This document shows, piece after piece, positions 17,174 through 28,512 of a stretch of 64,000 nt of DNA; position 1 is the first letter of the stretch; the number at the start of each line of letters is the position of its first letter. Source of the stretch: Mariprofundus sp. NF. Lineage in GTDB: Bacteria > Pseudomonadota > Zetaproteobacteria > Mariprofundales > Mariprofundaceae. The position numbers and the translations under genes were made by a program. The notes under the pieces are model-generated. The model ran no database searches and was not told the origin of the DNA. It worked only from the letters and a program-made list of their open reading frames with translations. The DNA is taken from the NCBI RefSeq assembly GCF_013387455.1, contig NZ_VWNC01000001.1, positions 372,001-436,000 of the forward strand. The letters are read 5' to 3'.

Positions 17174-18016
17174 ATGCATATCAAGGATCTGAAGGAACAT
17201 GATGACCATCACCTGCACCTGACGGGGCTGCGCAAAGTGCTCAATGAGCTGCTTTTTGATACGCGTACGCTGGCCGGGCGCATCACCAACTGGAGCATGC
17301 TTGCTCTGATTATGATTGTGGTGATTGGCTCCATGGTTAACACTGTTGAAGCCTATAATGCGCAGTGGGGTGAGCAGATTCATGAGTTTGAGCGCTGGGT
17401 GCTCTACGCCTTTGCACTTGAATATGTGTTGCGGGTTTATTCGGCGCGCAACCGTAAGCATTACATACTCAGTTTTAACGGTGTTGTAGATCTGATTACG
17501 GTGTTGCCACTGTTTGTTGTGGGTGACTCATTTGTGTTGGTGCGTCTGCTGCGTCTGGCACGTGTGATCAGGGTGGCGATCTCATTCCCCGTTGTTCGTT
17601 CCCTGTTTGCCTCACTCAGAGGTTCACTGAAGCTGCTTATGGGTGTACTGGGAACTATCGGCCTGATCTCTGTGATGGTAGGCAATATGATCTATATCCT
17701 TGAGCCGGAGACTTACTCCAACGCATTTGAAGGAACATGGTGGTCGCTGGTGACCATGAGTACGGTGGGTTACGGTGATTTTGTCCCGCAAACTGCAGTC
17801 GGCAAAATGTTGGCGGCAAGCCTGATCATGTCCGGTATCTGTATGTTTGCGATGGTGACGGCGGTGATTTCTGTGAAAGTGGGTCGAATGATTAATCATT
17901 CTGCCAAGTGCAGCTCCTGTAAACACGGTATAGCACCGGATTATCTCTTCTGCCCACACTGTGCTACTGCGCAGGAAGGGGCTCAACCAGAGGTTTTCGA
18001 AGAGGATGACGCCTGA
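17174..18016 (+). CDS. Voltage-gated-type potassium channel with C-terminal zinc ribbon
   Basis: A 280-residue six-helix channel subunit. S1-S3 hydrophobic segments are followed by an Arg-rich S4 (LVRLLRLARVIRV), S5, the pore with selectivity filter TVGYGD (197-202) and S6. The cytoplasmic tail carries CSSC and CPHC pairs forming a probable zinc ribbon, which is not part of the ordinary Kch/KvAP plan. The family passes K+; ligands of the tail are unknown. AGGGGT lies about 8 bases before the ATG. guaB follows on the same strand after 95 bases. Confidence 0.9.
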   Translation: MHIKDLKEHDDHHLHLTGLRKVLNELLFDTRTLAGRITNWSMLALIMIVVIGSMVNTVEAYNAQWGEQIHEFERWVLYAFALEYVLRVYSARNRKHYILSFNGVVDLITVLPLFVVGDSFVLVRLLRLARVIRVAISFPVVRSLFASLRGSLKLLMGVLGTIGLISVMVGNMIYILEPETYSNAFEGTWWSLVTMSTVGYGDFVPQTAVGKMLAASLIMSGICMFAMVTAVISVKVGRMINHSAKCSSCKHGIAPDYLFCPHCATAQEGAQPEVFEEDDA

Positions 18017-18021
18017 TCTGA

Positions 18022-19587
<1,566 letters not shown>

Positions 19588-19744
19588 TTTTTAGACGCAG
19601 ATGAACGCAGATATACGCTGATTTAGCATTGACCTCTGTTCATCTGAGTCTCTTAAGGGTTTGGAGTCGCGCAAAAATATTTGATTTTATTATGACGTTG
19701 GTTTGCCATTTATCTGTGTTGATCTGCGTTCATCTGTGTCTAAA
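19588..19744. repeat. Gene-less inverted iteron array between guaB and guaA
   Basis: The left arm TTTAGA plus three 10-bp units at 19596-19605, 19606-19615 and 19616-19625 (CGCAGATGAA, CGCAGATATA, CGCTGATTTA) mirrors a right arm at 19709-19744 whose reverse complement reads CACAGATGAA, CGCAGATCAA, CACAGATAAA. A decayed third copy is at about 19635-19656. The units match those bounding the GxxExxY gene at 25984-26426, but only about 80 non-coding bases lie between the arms here. The array starts directly after the guaB stop and ends 12 bases before the guaA ATG. Confidence 0.85.
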
Positions 19745-19756
19745 GGTTGGGTTATA

Positions 19757-21307
19757 ATGGATAAAATATTAATTCTGGATTTTGGTTCACAGTATACGCA
19801 GCTGATTGCGCGGCGTGTACGTGAAGCGCAGGTCTATTCTGAGCTGCATCCCTGGGATATGACAGAAGCGGATATCCGCGCCTTTAAGCCATCCGGTATT
19901 ATTCTCTCAGGTGGCCCAAACTCAGTCTATGAAGATGAGACCCCTAAGGCTCCGGCCTGTGTGTTTGAACTGGGCGTGCCTGTGCTCGGTATCTGTTACG
20001 GCATGCAGACCATGGCTGTGCAACTTGGTGGTGTGGTTGAAACCGGCCATGTGGCTGAATTCGGCTATGCTGAAGTCATGCCTTGCGGTGATTCGTCACT
20101 GCTGCGTGGAATCGATGAGGGTAAAGAGGGAGGTGCCCTTGATGTCTGGATGAGTCATGGTGATAAGGTCTCAGCACTACCTGCCGGTTTTGAAGTGATC
20201 TGCAGTAATGCCTCTACACCGATTGCCGGCATGGCTGATGAATCACGCCGTTTTTATGCACTGCAGTTCCATCCGGAAGTGACCCACACCCATCAGGGCA
20301 AGGCGATGCTCTCCCGCTTTGTGCATGATATCTGCGGCTGTGGTCGTGAATGGACCATGCCGCACTATATTGATGAGGCGGTCGCCCATATCCGTGAGCA
20401 GGTGGGTGAGGAAGATGTGATTCTCGGCCTCTCCGGAGGTGTTGACTCCTCCGTAGCTGCTGCGTTGTTGCAGCGTGCCATCGGTAGTCAGTTGACCTGT
20501 ATCTTTGTCGATAACGGATTGCTGCGCCTGCATGAGGCTGAGCAGGTGATGGAGATGTTCGCCAATAACCTTGGTGTGAAAGTTGATCATGTTGATGCCT
20601 CTGAGAAGTTCTTAAGTGAGCTGGCCGGTGTCTCTGATCCGGAAGCCAAACGCAAGATTATCGGTCGCGAATTTGTACATGTGTTCCAGGAAGAGGCGGA
20701 GAGTATGCCTAACGCCAAGTGGCTGGCACAGGGTACGATCTATCCTGATGTGATCGAGTCGGCCGGTTCCAAAACCAAAAAAGCCCACACTATCAAGAGT
20801 CATCATAATGTCGGTGGCCTGCCAGACACGCTGCATCTGAAACTGCTGGAGCCACTGCGTGACCTGTTCAAGGATGAGGTGCGTGAGCTGGGTGTGGCGC
20901 TCGGTCTACCTCGTGAGATGGTCTATCGCCATCCGTTCCCGGGTCCCGGGCTTGGTGTTCGAATCTTAGGCGAAGTGAAAAAAGAGTATGCCGAACTGCT
21001 GCGTCGTGCTGATGCGATTTTTATCGAGGAGCTGCGTGCCTCAGGCTGGTATGAGAAGACCAGTCAGGCATTTGTTGTCTTCCTGCCGGTAAAATCGGTC
21101 GGTGTGATGGGTGATGGCCGTACCTATGAGTGGGTGGTTGCGCTGCGTGCTGTAGAGACTCAGGACTTTATGACCGCACTCTGGGCAGAGTTGCCGCATG
21201 CACTGTTGGCCAAGGTATCCAATCGTATTATTAATGAGGTGCGTGGCATCAACCGTGTGGTCTATGATGTTTCGGGCAAACCGCCAGCTACGATTGAGTG
21301 GGAATAA
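19757..21307 (+). CDS. guaA: GMP synthase (glutamine-hydrolysing)
   Basis: A 516-residue enzyme (525 in E. coli) converting XMP to GMP. The class I glutamine amidotransferase domain has Cys80 (GICYGMQ) and QFHPEV; the ATP-pyrophosphatase domain has LSGGVDSS; the C-terminal dimerisation domain ends [21 protein letters not shown] 19757 begins the conserved [14 protein letters not shown]; the frame extends upstream into the iteron array from a TTG at 19703, which is not credible. The ribosome binding site is weak (AAGG, partly from the array end). Confidence 0.97.
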
Positions 21308-21409
21308 ATTATAGGCAGAGGGTCACAGTGAAATATTTGGCCTTGCCATATTCAGAGATATCAGCTTTGATAAGCGGGTAGTTAATAGTTTCTTATGAAG
21401 GGAGAGATC

Positions 21410-22183
21410 ATGAAAAAGGTATTTATTCTTGCCTGTGTTGTTCTGCTTGCTGCATGCAGTCAGCAGGAAGAGAAAAAGGCTCCGGCGCTAACGCTTGATA
21501 GCGAAGAGTCCAAGCTCGCTTATGCCATTGGTATGGATATCGGCATGTCACTGAAAACAATAGGTACTGATCTGGATCGGGCCGTGATGATTGCCGCAAT
21601 CAATGATCGACTGGATGGCGCCGACAGCAAATTGAGTCAGGAAGATGCCAACAAGGTGAAACAGGCCTTTTTTGTGAAACAGGCTGAGAAGAAGGCGGCT
21701 GAGCAGAAGGCGGCAGCTGAAAAGAACAAGGCAGAGGGCGCCACTTTTCTTGCTGAGCATGCAGGAAAAGAGGGTGTGACTGTAACACCGAGTGGTCTGC
21801 ACTATCAGGTTATCCTGCAGGGTGAGGGTGCCAAACCTACTCTGAACGATAAAGTTACCGTTCACTACAAAGGTACAACCATTGATGGTGTTGAGTTCGA
21901 CTCCTCCTACAGCCGTGGTGAGCCGATCACTTTTCCTCTGGCTGGCGTGATTGCCGGTTGGCAGGAGGGCGTTCAGTTGATGAATGTCGGCTCCAAATAC
22001 AGGCTCGTTCTGCCATCTGAGCTTGCTTATGGTGAGCGTGGTGCCGGAGCCAAAATCGGCCCCAACAGTGTTCTGATCTTTGAGGTTGAGCTGATTGCGA
22101 TCGTCGATGAGAAGGCTGAGGCAGAGGCTGCGGCCAAGCTTGAAGAGGCTGCCAAAGCGGCACAGGCCGAAGCCAAAAAGTAG
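21410..22183 (+). CDS. FKBP-type peptidyl-prolyl isomerase lipoprotein
   Basis: A 257-residue envelope protein: lipobox LAAC with Cys16, an N-terminal FKBP dimerisation region (about 30-110, SEESKLAYAIGMDIG), a linker helix, then the FKBP catalytic domain (about 120-225) with VTVHYKGTTIDGVEFDSSY and the terminal PNSVLIFEVELI. A Lys/Ala/Glu tail follows. It resembles FkpA/Mip foldases but is lipid-anchored. GGGAGAG precedes ATG 21410; an ATG 15 bases earlier lacks one. Confidence 0.92.
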   Translation: MKKVFILACVVLLAACSQQEEKKAPALTLDSEESKLAYAIGMDIGMSLKTIGTDLDRAVMIAAINDRLDGADSKLSQEDANKVKQAFFVKQAEKKAAEQKAAAEKNKAEGATFLAEHAGKEGVTVTPSGLHYQVILQGEGAKPTLNDKVTVHYKGTTIDGVEFDSSYSRGEPITFPLAGVIAGWQEGVQLMNVGSKYRLVLPSELAYGERGAGAKIGPNSVLIFEVELIAIVDEKAEAEAAAKLEEAAKAAQAEAKK

Positions 22184-22249
22184 GAAGGCATGAATGATGC
22201 GTCGTAATAGATTCATCATTTTGTCATAATTCTCAGATAACATTGCTGA

Positions 22250-22281
22250 CCCTTCCCCCGTATGGGGGGAGGGTTATTTTT
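22250..22281 (+). terminator. Terminator after the FKBP gene
   Basis: A 10-bp C/G stem at 22250-22259 and 22264-22273 with a GTAT loop, followed by TTATTTTT. Confidence 0.8.
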
Positions 22282-22332
22282 ATGAAATAACCGGAGTCAC
22301 GCATGACTTTGGCATGAGATAGGAGATCTGAA

Positions 22333-23070
22333 TTGAAAGAGAAGATGTTGAAGTCGTACAAGGCATGGGATGCCCCCACGCGTATTTTCCACTGGGTGAA
22401 TTTCACGACCGTGCTACTGCTTATCTTTATGGGCCTGATGATGCTGTTTAAAAAGGATATGGGCATCACCAGTCTGGAGGCGAAGATCACGCTGAAAACC
22501 ATTCATGTGTTGATCGGTTACGTTTTTGTATTGAATCTGGCTGTGCGTATTGGCTGGGGTTTTGTCGGCGGTCGTTACTCCCGCTGGATGAATATCTTTC
22601 CCGGTAAGGGATATATCGGTGAGCTGAGCAGTTATCTTGCCAGTATTAAAGCGGGTGAGCCAAAACAGTATGTGGGTCACAATCCGCTGGGTCGTCTGGC
22701 TGTAGCGGTGATTATGCTCTCGCTCTCTGTGATGGCTGTGACCGGTCTGGTTCGTGCCGGTACCGATATCTATTACCCGCCGTTTGGTTCAACGTTTGCC
22801 GCACAGATCGCCGCCGATGGTGTTGATCCTGCAACGATCAAACCGTATGATAATACAGGTACTGATGCAGCGAAGGCCAAGGCGCTGAGCGCATTCAAAG
22901 GCCCGTTCGGCACTGTGCACATCTACACTTCCTACTTCCTGATGTTCCTGATCCTGCTGCATATCTTCGTGGTGGTACGTACCGAGATCAAAGAGGGTGG
23001 AGGGCTGGTCTCTGCGATGATCACCGGGCGCAAAGCGCTTACCAAAGAGCCGGAAGATCTCAACGGTTAA
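22333..23070 (+). CDS. Cytochrome b561-type membrane protein
   Basis: A 245-residue four-helix di-heme b-type cytochrome of the bacterial b561/Ni-hydrogenase cytochrome b class. Heme-ligand candidates are the His in RIFHWVNF, His in TIHVLIGY, and the His pair in VHIYTSYFLMFLILLHIF. Such proteins pass electrons between quinones and a periplasmic partner; no partner gene is adjacent, so the redox role is open. The start is TTG at 22333, with AGGAG 7 bases upstream; the first ATG (22345) is too far from it. Confidence 0.85.
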   Translation: MKEKMLKSYKAWDAPTRIFHWVNFTTVLLLIFMGLMMLFKKDMGITSLEAKITLKTIHVLIGYVFVLNLAVRIGWGFVGGRYSRWMNIFPGKGYIGELSSYLASIKAGEPKQYVGHNPLGRLAVAVIMLSLSVMAVTGLVRAGTDIYYPPFGSTFAAQIAADGVDPATIKPYDNTGTDAAKAKALSAFKGPFGTVHIYTSYFLMFLILLHIFVVVRTEIKEGGGLVSAMITGRKALTKEPEDLNG

Positions 23071-23093
23071 TCAGAAAGCTGTAAGTGCAATAG

Positions 23094-23123
23094 AAAGGCC
23101 CCGCAAATGCGGGGCCTTTTTTT
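23094..23123. terminator. Terminator between cytochrome b561 and ileS
   Basis: An 11-bp stem AAAGGCCCCGC / GCGGGGCCTTT with AAAT loop, A-run before and T-run after; usable for the convergent genes on both sides. Confidence 0.9.
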
Positions 23124-23199
23124 CATCCTGAAATTTCTGCTGCATCCATGCGGCAGATCCATTCGCCCCATCCCCGACCGAATGGAAATTGTTTTGCCC

Positions 23200-25971
23200 T
23201 TATGTCACTGCTTCAAAGCAGCGTGGGCAGAGCTCATTGTGCACTGCATGCGTTGAATCTGCAGGCGCACTGAAGTTCCAGCAGCGTGGGCACTTCACAC
23301 CATCCGCAGCTCTGATCGTGATGGCATCACCAGATTCTACTTTGGCGACGATGAACAGCTGTTCCCAGCTCTCACCTACAGCTTCAGCAAATGCGTTATC
23401 CAGATTTGGCACTGTCACAGTTGCCGCAATGGATGAACCGACAATCTTATCCTTCTTGGCCTGATCCATTGCCGTGTTGACCTGCTCACGCAGGGCAAAG
23501 AAGACTTCCCACGCCTTCTCATCCACCTTTATATCAGCAACCGGATGGAAGCGCTGCAGGTGGATGCTCTTGGCATCAGAGCCGGGCAGGAACTCCCACG
23601 CTTCATCAGCGGTGAACGGTACAATCGGAGCAATCAGTCGAATCAGGGTATCGGCCAGATCAAACAGGGTAGCACGCGCAGAGGCACGGCGATTGGAATC
23701 CGCCGCATCACAGTAGAGGCGATCCTTGATGATATCGAGGTAGAAGCCGCCCAGATCAACCGAACAGAAGTTATGCACCTCCTGATGGATACGGTGGAAC
23801 TGGTAGTGCTCATAAGCGTCATGCACCGCATGTTCAACCTGTGAAAGCCTGTGGCTGGCCCACTGATCAAGTGGTGTGCGATCTGCCACTGCAACAGCAT
23901 CACGAACCGGATCAAAACCATTGAGGTTACTCAGCAGGAAGCGGATGGTGTTGCGAATGCGGCGATAGGCTTCAGCCAGCTGCTTTAAAATCTCATCAGA
24001 GATGCGGATATCCGCTGAATAGTCGGCAGATGCGATCCACAGGCGCAGGATATCAGAGCCGAGTTGCTGGATGATCTTCTGCGGTGCTACGACATTGCCT
24101 TTGGACTTGGACATCTTGTTGCCGTTTTTATCCACCACAAAACCGTGCGTGAGCACACCTTTAAATGGTGCAACGCCACGGGTACCGACACTCTCCAGCA
24201 GTGAGGACTGGAACCAGCCGCGATGCTGATCAGAGCCCTCAAGGTAGAGATCGGCAGGGGTAGAGAGATCGTCACGATGTTCCAGCACGCAGGCGTGCGT
24301 ACTGCCTGAATCAAACCATACATCGAGAATGTCGGTCTCTTTCTCAAATTCCGAGCCGCCACAATCAGGGCAGGTTGCATCGGCAGGCAGGAATGCATTC
24401 ACATCCTTGGCAAACCATACATCTGCACCACCGGCTTCTACCTGTTTGGCAATACCTTCAACTACCTCAGCAGTGGTCACTTTATGGGAGCCGCAGGCGC
24501 AGCGGATGGCGGTGATCGGTACACCCCAGTTACGTTGACGTGATACACACCAGTCAGGGCGCTGCTCCACCATTGCGCGGATACGGTTTTCACCCCATTC
24601 CGGTGTCCATGCTGTCTTTTTAATCTCAGCCAGTGCTTTGTTGCGCAGGTCATTGGCATCCATGGAGATGAACCACTGTGGCGTAGCGCGGAAGATCAGT
24701 GGTTTGTGGCAGCGCCAGCAGTGCGGATAGGAGTGGCGAACTTCACTGGTCTCAAGCAGGGCACCACAGTTAAGCAGATGCTCAACCATGATGGCATTGG
24801 CCTGATAGACGTGGCGACCGGCAACAACAGGGGTGGCCTCATCAAATATGCCGGTATCACCGACAGGGTTGAAAGCCTTCAGGCCATATTTCATGCCGAT
24901 CTCGTAATCTTCCTGACCATGGCCCGGTGCGGTGTGCACCGATCCTGTGCCCGCTTCCAGTGTGACATGATCACCCACCAGAATCGGAGCATGCTGATCG
25001 AGATAGGGGTGGCGGAAATTGCGTTTGTCCAGCTTCTCACCGCTAAAGGTTGTTACAACCTCACCTTCAGCGCCGATAGCCTGCATTACTCCGGCGCGCA
25101 GATCCTCCGCCAGGATGATGGTTTCACCGGCTTTGAGGTTGCGGTTATCTCCGGTAGCGGTGATTTTAACGGCTGAGTATTCGATAGCGGGGCCGACTGA
25201 GACAGCCAGATTGGCAGGGATCGTCCACGGCGTGGTGGTCCAGATAACAATAGAGAGATCACCTGTCAGTTCAGGTGCGATATCGCTCAGATCTTCACCG
25301 GCAGCAAATTTCACATAGATCGAGTGTGAGGTGTGATCCTCATACTCCACCTCCGCCTCTGCCAGAGCGGTGGCGCAGGAGACACACCAGTGCACAGGTT
25401 TGGCGCCCTTATAGAGGCCACCATTGCCGAGGAACTTGCCGATCTCACGAACGGTGTTGGCCTCAAAGTTATAATCCATGGTGACATACGGGTTTTCCCA
25501 GTCACCGGTGATACCGAGGCGCTTGAACTCTTCGCGCTGCACATCGATCTGCCCTTTGGCATATTCACGGCACTCGGCTCTGAATTCAGAGTCGGAGATA
25601 TCCTCTTTTTTGCGTTTCTTCTTTTTGAACTTCTCTTCCACCTTCAGCTCAATGGGCAGACCATGGCAGTCCCAGCCCGGCACGTAAGGGGCATCAAAAC
25701 CGAGCATGGTACGGGAGCGGGTGACGACATCTTTAAGCACTTTGTTCAGGGCGTGGCCGATATGGATGCTACCATTGGCGTATGGCGGGCCATCATGAAG
25801 CACGAATTTCGGGGCATCTTTACGAGCTTCGCGAATCTGCGCGTAGAGATCTTCATCTTCCCATTTTGCGAGGCGTTTAGGCTCACTCTGCGGCAGGTTG
25901 CCACGCATGGGAAAGTCTGTTTTCGGCAGGAAAACAGTGGATTTATAATCGAATACTTCTTGCTCAGACAC
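23200..25971 (-). CDS. ileS: Isoleucyl-tRNA synthetase
   Basis: A 923-residue class I synthetase charging tRNA-Ile. The HIGH-type motif is in [16 protein letters not shown], the editing CP1 domain includes [18 protein letters not shown] is in NKMSKSKGN, and the C-terminal zinc finger has CPRCWNFS and CPRCF. The start is GTG at 25971 with GGAG 7 bases upstream. The iteron array of the GxxExxY element begins one base beyond this ribosome binding site. ribF, the usual upstream partner, lies past that element. Confidence 0.98.
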
Positions 25972-25983
25972 AGTGTTGCTCCA

Positions 25984-26426
25984 TTTTAGACGCAGATGAA
26001 CGCAGATATTCGCAGATTTAACTTCTGCTCTCTATCTTGCGCCGGATTTCCACCCGTTTCTCTGCGAAGTTAATCAATAGTCCGATTTCAAGGCCTGTTG
26101 CCTTGAGATAGTTGACCAGTTGAACTTCATGAACCGGCAGGATATGCGATACTGATTTCAATTCCACTATGATTTTATCATTCACCACCAGATCAGCGAA
26201 ATATTCACCAACACATTTCCCATGATATGTGACGTGCAAAGGTTTCTGCTGTTCTACTTTTAGTCCAATTCTGGTCAGTTCAATAACCATTGCATTCTCG
26301 TAAACTTTTTCCAAAAAGCCTGAACCCAGAGCATTGTGAACCGTGAATGCAGCCTGAATAATCTGTTCAGTCAGCGCTGCATGCTTATATCCATCTGTGT
26401 CCATCTGCGTTAATCAGCGTCTAAAA
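25984..26426 (-). mobile_element. GxxExxY element bounded by inverted 10-bp iteron arrays
   Basis: Left arm: TTTTAGA at 25984-25990 and units CGCAGATGAA, CGCAGATATT, CGCAGATTTA at 25991-26020. Right arm (reverse complement): TTTTAGA at 26426-26420 and units CGCTGATTAA, CGCAGATGGA, CACAGATGGA at 26419-26390. The only gene inside, GxxExxY, begins in one arm and ends in the other. The outer right end also encodes the last residues and TAA of ribF; the outer left end touches the ileS ribosome binding site. No transposase and no clear target duplication are seen, so mobility is inferred from structure and from the gene-less copy at guaB-guaA. Confidence 0.7.
26018..26404 (-). CDS. GxxExxY protein, PD-(D/E)XK nuclease-like
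   Basis: A 128-residue protein of the GxxExxY family. The name-giving motif is Gly29-Glu32-Tyr35 in [10 protein letters not shown]; the nuclease-like core has Asp71 and Glu81-x-Lys83 in [17 protein letters not shown], all intact. Such proteins are predicted to have the PD-(D/E)XK fold, but no function is established to my knowledge. The start codon and first residues (MDTDGYKH) are encoded by the iterons, no ribosome binding site is evident, and the stop TAA is in the opposite array. It sits in the transcription direction of ribF and ileS. Confidence 0.9.
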
Positions 26427-27342
26427 TCTGCCTGGCCATATCACAATCTTTGGCGATCTGGGCGGCCAGATCGGCGTGACCGGTGAATTTGCGATCCTCA
26501 CGAATACGCTGAATAAAGCTGACATTCAGGCACTGGTCATAGAGATCAGGTGAATCATCCAGCAGGTGGGTCTCCAGCAGCAGGGTGCGGCCATTGAAGG
26601 TGGGGCGGTAACCAAGATAAGCGGCACCATTCCACTGTTTTGATCTGTCTCTGGTATTGGCACGTACGGCATAGATACCAACCGGAGGGTGTGCCAGATC
26701 AGCCACATCAACATTGGCGGTCGGGAAATTCATTTCGCGGCCCCGTTTTTCACCGTGCAGTACTTTACCGGCAATCGAGTAGTCGCGACCAAGCAGTGTT
26801 TTAGCCAGTTCAAAATCAGCGGCTTCCACCGCCGAGCGGATACGCGAGCTGGAGACGACTGCCCCCATCATCTCAAAGGCAGCAGCTACCGTAACGTTAA
26901 ATCCAACCTCATCACCGAGATTGCGCAGATCATCAACATGACCTTCGCGATCATGGCCAAAGGCAAAATCGTAACCGACATGCATATGTTTGAAGGCGAA
27001 TGTTTCATAGAGGGTGGAAGAGAACTTTTCGGCAGGCCATCCAGCCAGCTCTTTGGTGAACTCCAACAGCAGTACGGCATTCACACCTTCAGCTTCAAGG
27101 TAGCCCAGTTTCTCCTGTAGATGACACAGACGGCGCGGTGCCTCTTCAGGATAGAGTACGGCGCGCGGATGCGGTTCAAAGGTGACCACAATCGTTGGCC
27201 CGTCGGCATTCATGGCGTGGCCGCGTGTCTCGGCCAGCACCTGCTCATGACCCATGTGCACGCCATCGAAGTTGCCGAGGGTGATGGCACCGCCGCGAAT
27301 TTCGGAGGCGCGAGCCTCATCCCATGAGTGAAAAATCTGCAT
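26410..27342 (-). CDS. ribF: Bifunctional riboflavin kinase/FAD synthetase
   Basis: A 310-residue enzyme (313 in E. coli) making FMN and FAD. The N-terminal FAD synthetase nucleotidyltransferase has LGNFDGVHMGH and SSSRIRSAV; the C-terminal riboflavin kinase has GRDYSIAGKV, NFPTANV and WNGAAYLGYRPTF. Start set at 27342 by homology; no good ribosome binding site is seen and the frame is open to 27402. The last residues LDAD and the stop lie in the iteron array of the element separating it from ileS, a normally adjacent gene. Confidence 0.95.
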   Translation of the reverse strand: MQIFHSWDEARASEIRGGAITLGNFDGVHMGHEQVLAETRGHAMNADGPTIVVTFEPHPRAVLYPEEAPRRLCHLQEKLGYLEAEGVNAVLLLEFTKELAGWPAEKFSSTLYETFAFKHMHVGYDFAFGHDREGHVDDLRNLGDEVGFNVTVAAAFEMMGAVVSSSRIRSAVEAADFELAKTLLGRDYSIAGKVLHGEKRGREMNFPTANVDVADLAHPPVGIYAVRANTRDRSKQWNGAAYLGYRPTFNGRTLLLETHLLDDSPDLYDQCLNVSFIQRIREDRKFTGHADLAAQIAKDCDMARQILDAD

Positions 27343-27441
27343 GTTCGCAACTATATCGTCAGACAGCGCAATTAAACAGAGAACAGGAATAGGGGGACTC
27401 ATGCTTGAGTCGGAGGTGATCTGTCGGCACGATACCGCACC

Positions 27442-28512
27442 ATGGATATTGTGACACAGGGATTGGCAGGCGCTGTATTGGCTCAGAGCTTCAGCAAAAA
27501 AGGTGAGACACGCATCGCCATGGTGATCGGTTTTCTGGCCGGACTGCTGGCCGATATTGATGCACTGTTCACCCGGTCCGAAGTTGACCCTCTCCTACAA
27601 CTCGATTTTCATCGGCACTTTACCCACTCGATCTTCTTTATCCCTTTTGGTGGTCTGATCGCTGCCCTGTTGATGTGGCCGATGCTGAAAAAGGTACTGC
27701 CTTTCAAACGGCTGCTGATTTTCACAACCGCCGGTTACGGCACATCAGGATTGATCGATGCCTGCACCAGCTACGGCACATCACTGCTTTGGCCACTTAC
27801 CGATGAACGTATCTCCTGGAATATTATCTCGATCCTTGATCCGCTCTTCTCCATCGCATTGATCACCGCCATCGCCTTTGCCGCAGTCAAACGCACACCG
27901 CGCTATGCCGCCTTCGGCCTCTGCTTTGCGATCTCCTACCTGCTGGTCGGTTTCTCCCAGCATGAGCGTGTGGAGGCGATGGCCATGGCACTGGCTGAAT
28001 CGCGCGGGCATCAGGTGGAGCGTATCGAGATTAAACCAACGATGGGTAATCTGGTGTTGTGGCGATCGATCTATGAGGCCGATGGTTATTTCCACATGGA
28101 TGCCCTGCGCGCCGGACTACCCGGTGAAGAGAAGTTGTACAGCGGCGAATCGGTAAAACGCTTTGAGCTGACCGACCTGCCGGAAGTGGCAGAAGGTTCA
28201 GTGCTGGCAGAAGATATCAAACGCTTTGAGTTTTTCTCAGATGGTTACATCGCTCTGTTTCCCGGAGAGAAACCTTTGATTGGTGATACCCGCTACTCGA
28301 TGCTGCCAACCTCCACCAAGCCGATCTGGGGCATCGAACTGGATCTGGCTGATCAACAGCGCCATACCCCTTTCAACCAGTTCCACGACTCATCTGATCT
28401 GACCCGCCAGACCTTTATCGATATGCTGTTGGGAGATGATATCCGCATCGTAAAAGAGGACGCCAAACCTGAACCGCAGGTAATGGCTGATTCACTCGAA
28501 AAGAAAATTTAA
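27442..28512 (+). CDS. YdjM-like membrane-bound metal-dependent hydrolase
   Basis: A 356-residue inner-membrane protein. The N-terminal half has the YdjM/DUF457 plan: QGLAGAVLAQ, AGLLADIDAL, the His-rich DFHRHFTHS and four or five membrane helices; the C-terminal 180 residues are soluble and make it nearly twice the size of YdjM. The family is classed as metal-dependent hydrolase from conserved His/Asp; the substrate is unknown. It is divergent from ribF with 99 bases between the starts. Confidence 0.85.
   Translation: MDIVTQGLAGAVLAQSFSKKGETRIAMVIGFLAGLLADIDALFTRSEVDPLLQLDFHRHFTHSIFFIPFGGLIAALLMWPMLKKVLPFKRLLIFTTAGYGTSGLIDACTSYGTSLLWPLTDERISWNIISILDPLFSIALITAIAFAAVKRTPRYAAFGLCFAISYLLVGFSQHERVEAMAMALAESRGHQVERIEIKPTMGNLVLWRSIYEADGYFHMDALRAGLPGEEKLYSGESVKRFELTDLPEVAEGSVLAEDIKRFEFFSDGYIALFPGEKPLIGDTRYSMLPTSTKPIWGIELDLADQQRHTPFNQFHDSSDLTRQTFIDMLLGDDIRIVKEDAKPEPQVMADSLEKKI

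Follow-up and report, generated by a model that had tools for sequence, protein, structure and literature searches.

The spacer between guaB and guaA of Mariprofundus sp. NF holds a short geneless palindrome, the guaBA element, which is probably a non-autonomous mobile element, MITE- or REPIN-like, of a GxxExxY-iteron family. It shares its ends with a gene-bearing GxxExxY unit in the same window (the whole 64,000-nucleotide stretch that we analysed, in whose numbering positions are given). Elements of this kind were recurrently gained, lost or swapped among relatives, and their arms are associated with GxxExxY genes. The family of mobile palindromes to which it belongs is apparently widespread and undescribed, and its gene-bearing members carry a small nuclease gene. 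A search of one literature library returned no paper on the GxxExxY-iteron association, which is not proof of its being unknown.

Arms and interior of the guaB-guaA spacer

Two inverted arms and an interior take up nearly all of the 169-nt guaB-guaA spacer. The features of the spacer and of the gene-bearing unit are as follows.

18070-19587, plus strand: guaB (IMP dehydrogenase), upstream neighbour (TIGR01302, 609 bits)
19590-19622, plus strand: left arm, TTTAGAC followed by three 10-bp units (CGCAGATGAA CGCAGATATA CGCTGAT)
19623-19711, no strand: interior, 89 nt, geneless, matching neither the GxxExxY unit nor other elements
19625-19651, minus strand: inner degenerate right-arm-like copy (CTCTGTTCATCTGAGTCT), 74% pairing with the left arm
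19712-19744, minus strand: right arm, inverted copy, ending in ...CTGTGTCTAAA
19757-21307, plus strand: guaA (GMP synthase), downstream neighbour (NF000848, 822 bits)
25984-26019, plus strand: left arm of the gene-bearing unit (TTTTAGACGCAGATGAACGCAGATATTCGCAGATTT)
26018-26404, minus strand: GxxExxY protein, 128 aa (PF13366 / TIGR04256, E 2.7e-45)
26390-26426, minus strand: right arm of the gene-bearing unit (TCCATCTGTGTCCATCTGCGTTAATCAGCGTCTAAAA)

The two arms of the guaBA element, 33 nt each, are 85% complementary and lie 89 nt apart, and their 10-bp units follow the pattern CRCWGATNNA. Exact CNCAGATNNA units occur six times within 19596-19738 (143 bases), where about 0.03 would be expected by chance (11.5 per whole 64-kb window). 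The first-pass annotation, made from the sequence alone, had described 10-bp units in inverted arms at 19588-19744; the units are real, and both its coordinates and its description were right, including an end 12 bases short of guaA (19744 versus the ATG at 19757). The final AAA of the right arm overlaps a possible guaA Shine-Dalgarno sequence, AAAGG (19742-19746). Folded as RNA, the spacer forms a long stem (-62.4 kcal/mol, z = -7.2, reached in 0 of 200 shuffles), and the inner copy could also pair with the left arm. An Rfam scan of positions 17900-28000 gave no match.

GxxExxY genes and their iteron arms

The gene-bearing unit (25984-26426) sits between ileS and ribF, 6 kb from the guaBA element. 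A kinship between the two had been proposed in the first-pass annotation, and it was borne out by a 95% match over 37 nt between the left end of the guaBA element (19589-19625) and an arm of the unit (25984-26020). GxxExxY units (TIGR04256 / PF13366) have the same arm units and the same outer motif TTTAGAC as the guaBA element, which differs from them in being geneless. Read directly, the first codons of the GxxExxY gene (ATGGACACAGATGGA) and its stop both fall within its arms. The ribF frame also terminates within an arm of this unit, at window positions 26405-26426 (ATT TTA GAC GCT GAT TAA), and thus the element provides the last ribF codons and the stop. In genome G015, ribF terminates ahead of the arm.

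We took the closest relatives of the window GxxExxY protein and examined the 80 named loci, bacterial and archaeal, in which they are encoded; the closest named relative itself came from a Zetaproteobacteria MAG. Most of the GxxExxY genes in these loci lie between inverted arms whose units, for example ACACGGATT, ACAGGATTA and ACGCTGATG, are 9-10 bp long, and the outer motif is often TTTAGAC. With an inverted-repeat score of at least 14 as the cut-off for inverted arms, 53 of the 80 GxxExxY genes had them, as compared to 3 of 115 other ORFs of the same loci. GxxExxY units thus regularly include inverted iteron arms. One unit, at an Armatimonadetes locus (L177), has its gene between nearly perfect 58-bp inverted arms and is a candidate for a recently active unit.

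The guaBA element has the arms of the GxxExxY-iteron family, as defined here, and no GxxExxY gene between them; hence it is a non-autonomous relative rather than a full unit, in agreement with the first reading. That reading had also offered an internal deletion as an alternative, which was not supported: a GxxExxY remnant was undetectable in the 89-nt interior, as it was in the other geneless interiors, in a search that was insensitive to short remnants (its positive controls scored just E 0.13-0.16).

An AlphaFold2 model of the GxxExxY protein (pLDDT 91.7) showed a PD-(D/E)XK fold. The best structural match was Cas4-like SSO0001 (Z 9.8), and lambda exonuclease, Hjc and restriction enzymes followed behind it. 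E32, D71, E81, K83, Q95 and other residues were invariant across 40 sequences. Having this modelled fold and the conserved acidic and lysine residues, the linked protein is a predicted PD-(D/E)XK nuclease. A sequence search of the PDB returned chance matches only, and PADLOC assigned the protein to no defence family. GxxExxY genes occur in many phyla, and the family libraries that we used assign them no function. No relative was confirmed in the viral contigs searched; a few were found in plasmids and in one archaeal virus, and this scarcity does not suggest a phage or plasmid vehicle.

Elements in the genome and across the genus

The genome (2.53 Mb, 24 contigs) was searched with sequence patterns for further copies. 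The genome-wide iteron search that the first-pass annotation had proposed revealed about 10 further geneless elements with guaBA-type arms and two further GxxExxY genes whose arms are of other flavours (CGCGAATGAA and CACGAAGGA). The placement at an operon joint, which it had also put forward, was right for guaB-guaA and did not extend to the family: among 19 elements whose context could be assigned, the neighbouring genes are co-directional in 12 cases, convergent in 5 and divergent in 2, and operon joints are thus not the sole sites. The interiors of elements within this genome are mutually unrelated. A search for shared interiors found, apart from orthologous copies, a nested mini-palindrome and one locally duplicated pair. 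Thus, the geneless elements are not copies of one deletion derivative.

One-armed, head-to-tail expansions were present at C1:232586-232700 (L036; about 10 units) and at C6:144377-144466 (L043; about 7 units). The expansion at L036 is common to this genome and G015. To judge from these repeats, the iteron array can grow in a minisatellite-like manner.

Across the genus, the guaB-guaA joint varies greatly. Arms of guaBA type occur there in 5 of 22 species (Mariprofundus sp. NF, G020, G022, G012 and G013), ACAAAGGCAC-type palindromes in G007, G005 and G010, GTGAGG-type palindromes in G006 (L089), G021 (L086) and G002 (L094), and a larger GGCATCGGGCTCC...CCATGGGTGG structure in G015, G016, G019 and G011. 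The joint is nearly empty in G014 (33 nt) and measures 1-11 nt in the outgroups. The guaBA array is therefore absent from most of the genus and from the outgroups, contrary to the conservation across distant species that, according to the first-pass annotation, would indicate a guaBA regulatory element. On a tree of GuaB and GuaA, the guaBA arm type requires at least four changes.

The nearest relative on this tree is G015, with modest support (82/46). In the 60 bases adjoining the joint, the two genomes are 100% identical in guaA and 92% identical in guaB, and their spacers show no relationship (score 9, with a mean of 10.9 for shuffled sequences). The interiors of the guaBA elements of Mariprofundus sp. 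NF and G020 are likewise unrelated (z -0.7), and at another site an orthologous element has retained its interior in G020, G011 and G015 (z 5.2, 11.6 and 16.6, respectively). With flanks near-identical and spacer and interiors unrelated, the guaBA spacer was thus swapped or re-invaded recently.

We also searched six relatives for the flanks of seven elements of Mariprofundus sp. NF. At L044, which we take from its sequences to be a hldE-kdsB-like joint, stop and start codons lie a few bases apart in four relatives; Mariprofundus sp. NF and G020 have a guaBA-type element there and G016 has another iteron type. At L038 (presumably rnhB-pheT-like), the joint is empty in two relatives and holds an element of another type in G015; at L040 (presumably purH-purD-like), three relatives are empty. 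Comparison with the empty sites gave no clear target-site duplication, a possible 14-bp one being seen only in G016 at the hldE-kdsB-like joint. Whole-allele recombination could be the source of some of these presence/absence patterns.

The ileS-ribF joint shows a different series. The unit is whole in Mariprofundus sp. NF, slightly damaged in G015 and truncated in G010, G013 and G006. In G012, G022, G014 and G005 (L202, L280, L208 and L212), the GxxExxY gene is down to about 45 bp, and the remnants always span the VELK active site. The arms around these four remnants are of differing iteron types, so that either arms have changed places or this site has received several units. The series consists of deletion derivatives of a real unit, of the kind that the first reading had imagined, at a neighbouring site.

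We counted five iteron flavours, assigned by eye, across 23 genomes from the genus. Among genomes at least 90% complete, those that lack GxxExxY genes contained 3-17 iteron pairs, and most others contained tens to hundreds. Iteron load correlated with GxxExxY presence (Spearman 0.61, p 0.002). With phylogeny ignored, the arm flavours of the genes tended to match the iteron population of their genomes (permutation p 0.0001 raw; 0.006 and 0.03 after 2 and 4 matches per gene, respectively, were removed for the gene's own arms). An independent-pairs test on flavour gave three pairs for and none against, from very few pairs. Counts of GAT and GAAT iterons, each alone, correlated with both gene types. 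G022 has many GAT iterons and a GAT-type gene was not found in it; very few iterons occur in G001, which has three GxxExxY genes. The correlation of load with GxxExxY presence and the tendency of flavours to match suggest that geneless elements are mobilised in trans.

A probable mobile palindrome and its alternatives

If the guaBA element is a mobile palindrome, as we consider probable, its recognised ends would be the two inverted arms, in which the 10-bp units (ACRCWGATNN) are helically phased. The GxxExxY PD-(D/E)XK nuclease may be supplied in trans and may act on the iteron ends or on an extruded hairpin or cruciform; trans action, substrate and insertion chemistry are all conjectural here. 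Elements would land in spacers at little cost, in this case after the stop codon of guaB and ahead of the ribosome-binding site of guaA, and would survive where neither the preceding stop codon nor the following ribosome-binding site is harmed. The mutually unrelated interiors within one genome speak against this explanation, being unlike a normal MITE burst. Also against it are the failure to define a target-site duplication and the gene and iteron contents of G022 and G001. The wider proposition, that GxxExxY nucleases and their cognate palindromes form a separate mobile class, widespread in Bacteria and Archaea, in which the nuclease replaces a transposase and geneless elements are mobilised in trans, is tentative and at present rather doubtful.

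The logic of the guaBA element appears closest to that of REPINs with their RAYT genes and of MITEs. REPINs are extragenic inverted-repeat palindromes that exist in several flavours per genome, each tied to one low-copy enzyme gene that has this repeat on its flanks (PMC3116915). The GxxExxY-iteron family likewise has short extragenic palindromes in several flavours and an enzyme gene with the same repeats. However, the linked protein is a PD-(D/E)XK protein (TIGR04256) rather than a Y1 HUH transposase, the arms are built from phased iterons of 9-10 bp where REPINs have one 16-mer, and there is no conserved interior. Membership in REPIN/RAYT was rejected, since the linked gene is TIGR04256 and no Y1 (HUH) RAYT is involved; the comparison concerns only how such systems work. 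MITEs, including ERIC, Correia and Chunjie, are short, geneless and intergenic, have inverted ends, lie in operons in some cases and vary among relatives (PMC10969869). The guaBA element is also short, geneless and intergenic, has inverted terminal repeats and is present or absent between close relatives. In contrast to MITEs, it has no transposase parent, no interior common to its copies and no target-site duplication that we could find; its ends match a PD-(D/E)XK nuclease unit and not an autonomous transposon with a transposase.

Plasmid iterons are tandem, phased short repeats. The elements described here resemble them in phasing and differ in their inverted arms, many chromosomal copies and lack of a replication gene.

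The main alternative at guaBA is exaptation, because a palindrome of some sort is present there in most species of the genus. Any mobile hairpin that came to lie between the two genes would be selectively kept in the guaBA mRNA and would set mRNA processing or the guaB:guaA ratio. Nearly every species of the genus has some guaB-guaA spacer sequence, 15 of 22 spacers, from several unrelated sequence families, fold with z of about -2.4 or below, and the right arm extends into the possible Shine-Dalgarno sequence of guaA. Furthermore, processing by RNase III or RNase E is documented at Correia and ERIC MITEs (PMC10969869). However, other joints are occupied as well, the G014 joint (33 nt), those of the outgroups and the spacers of G017, G018, G024 and G004, which lack a significant fold, do not conform, and G-U wobble on the transcribed strand was not favoured among arm mismatches in a small sample (11 versus 10), from which an RNA-level function gains no support. 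We therefore regard exaptation as unlikely, if the best of the alternatives.

Somewhat less likely still is local repair or template switching in which arbitrary DNA becomes enclosed in palindromes of 10-bp units, with no discrete element being copied. This would account for conserved arms around unrelated interiors, for the one-armed tandem expansions and for the different arm types around seemingly one gene remnant at ileS-ribF. However, the empty sites, and the clean swaps that left the flanks intact, resemble the insertion of a discrete piece. Decay of a single old GxxExxY unit at guaBA, its gene lost in place, has a precedent in the ileS-ribF series, which runs from intact through truncated to about 45 bp around VELK. 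Given that the interiors yielded no gene remnant, at a low sensitivity for short ones, and that the unrelated spacer of the nearest relative marks the event as recent, we consider such decay improbable. A dedicated guaBA regulatory element, such as a purine-responsive attenuator or riboswitch, would fit the intergenic position and the strong fold, but it is largely refuted by its non-conservation within the genus and is very improbable also in view of the missing Rfam match and of the same arms at about 10 unrelated loci.

As a mobile palindrome, the guaBA element would illustrate how operon spacers can be swapped with the genes left untouched. The link of GxxExxY genes to iteron arms and geneless copies would give these genes a testable role, the mobilisation of short palindromes, and would account for many anonymous CGCAGATGA-, CACGAATNA- and CGCAGAGGA-type repeats in environmental genomes.

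Further palindromes were observed alongside these elements. One palindromic spacer family, GGCATCGGGCTCCTGCCC...CCATGGGTGG, occupies the guaB-guaA joints L080-L083 (G015, G016, G019 and G011), and another, TTCGGGGCTTCCTGCCCC..., the joints L259 and L260 (G007 and G020). The nested mini-palindrome, about 46 bp long (CACAAGGTGAATTGCGCTTGCGCAAGAGAGAGTGCCCTGGGGCA), lies inside several iteron elements, in their arms or interiors, and in several species. In Mariprofundus sp. NF, it was found at C3:223264 (L039), C5:6650 and 6890 (L041), C1:232775 (L036), C6:144290 (L043) and C6:177110 (L044), and it also occurs at the guaB-guaA joints of G005 (L091) and G010 (L092). It seems to be a second mobile palindrome, smaller in size and resident in iteron elements.
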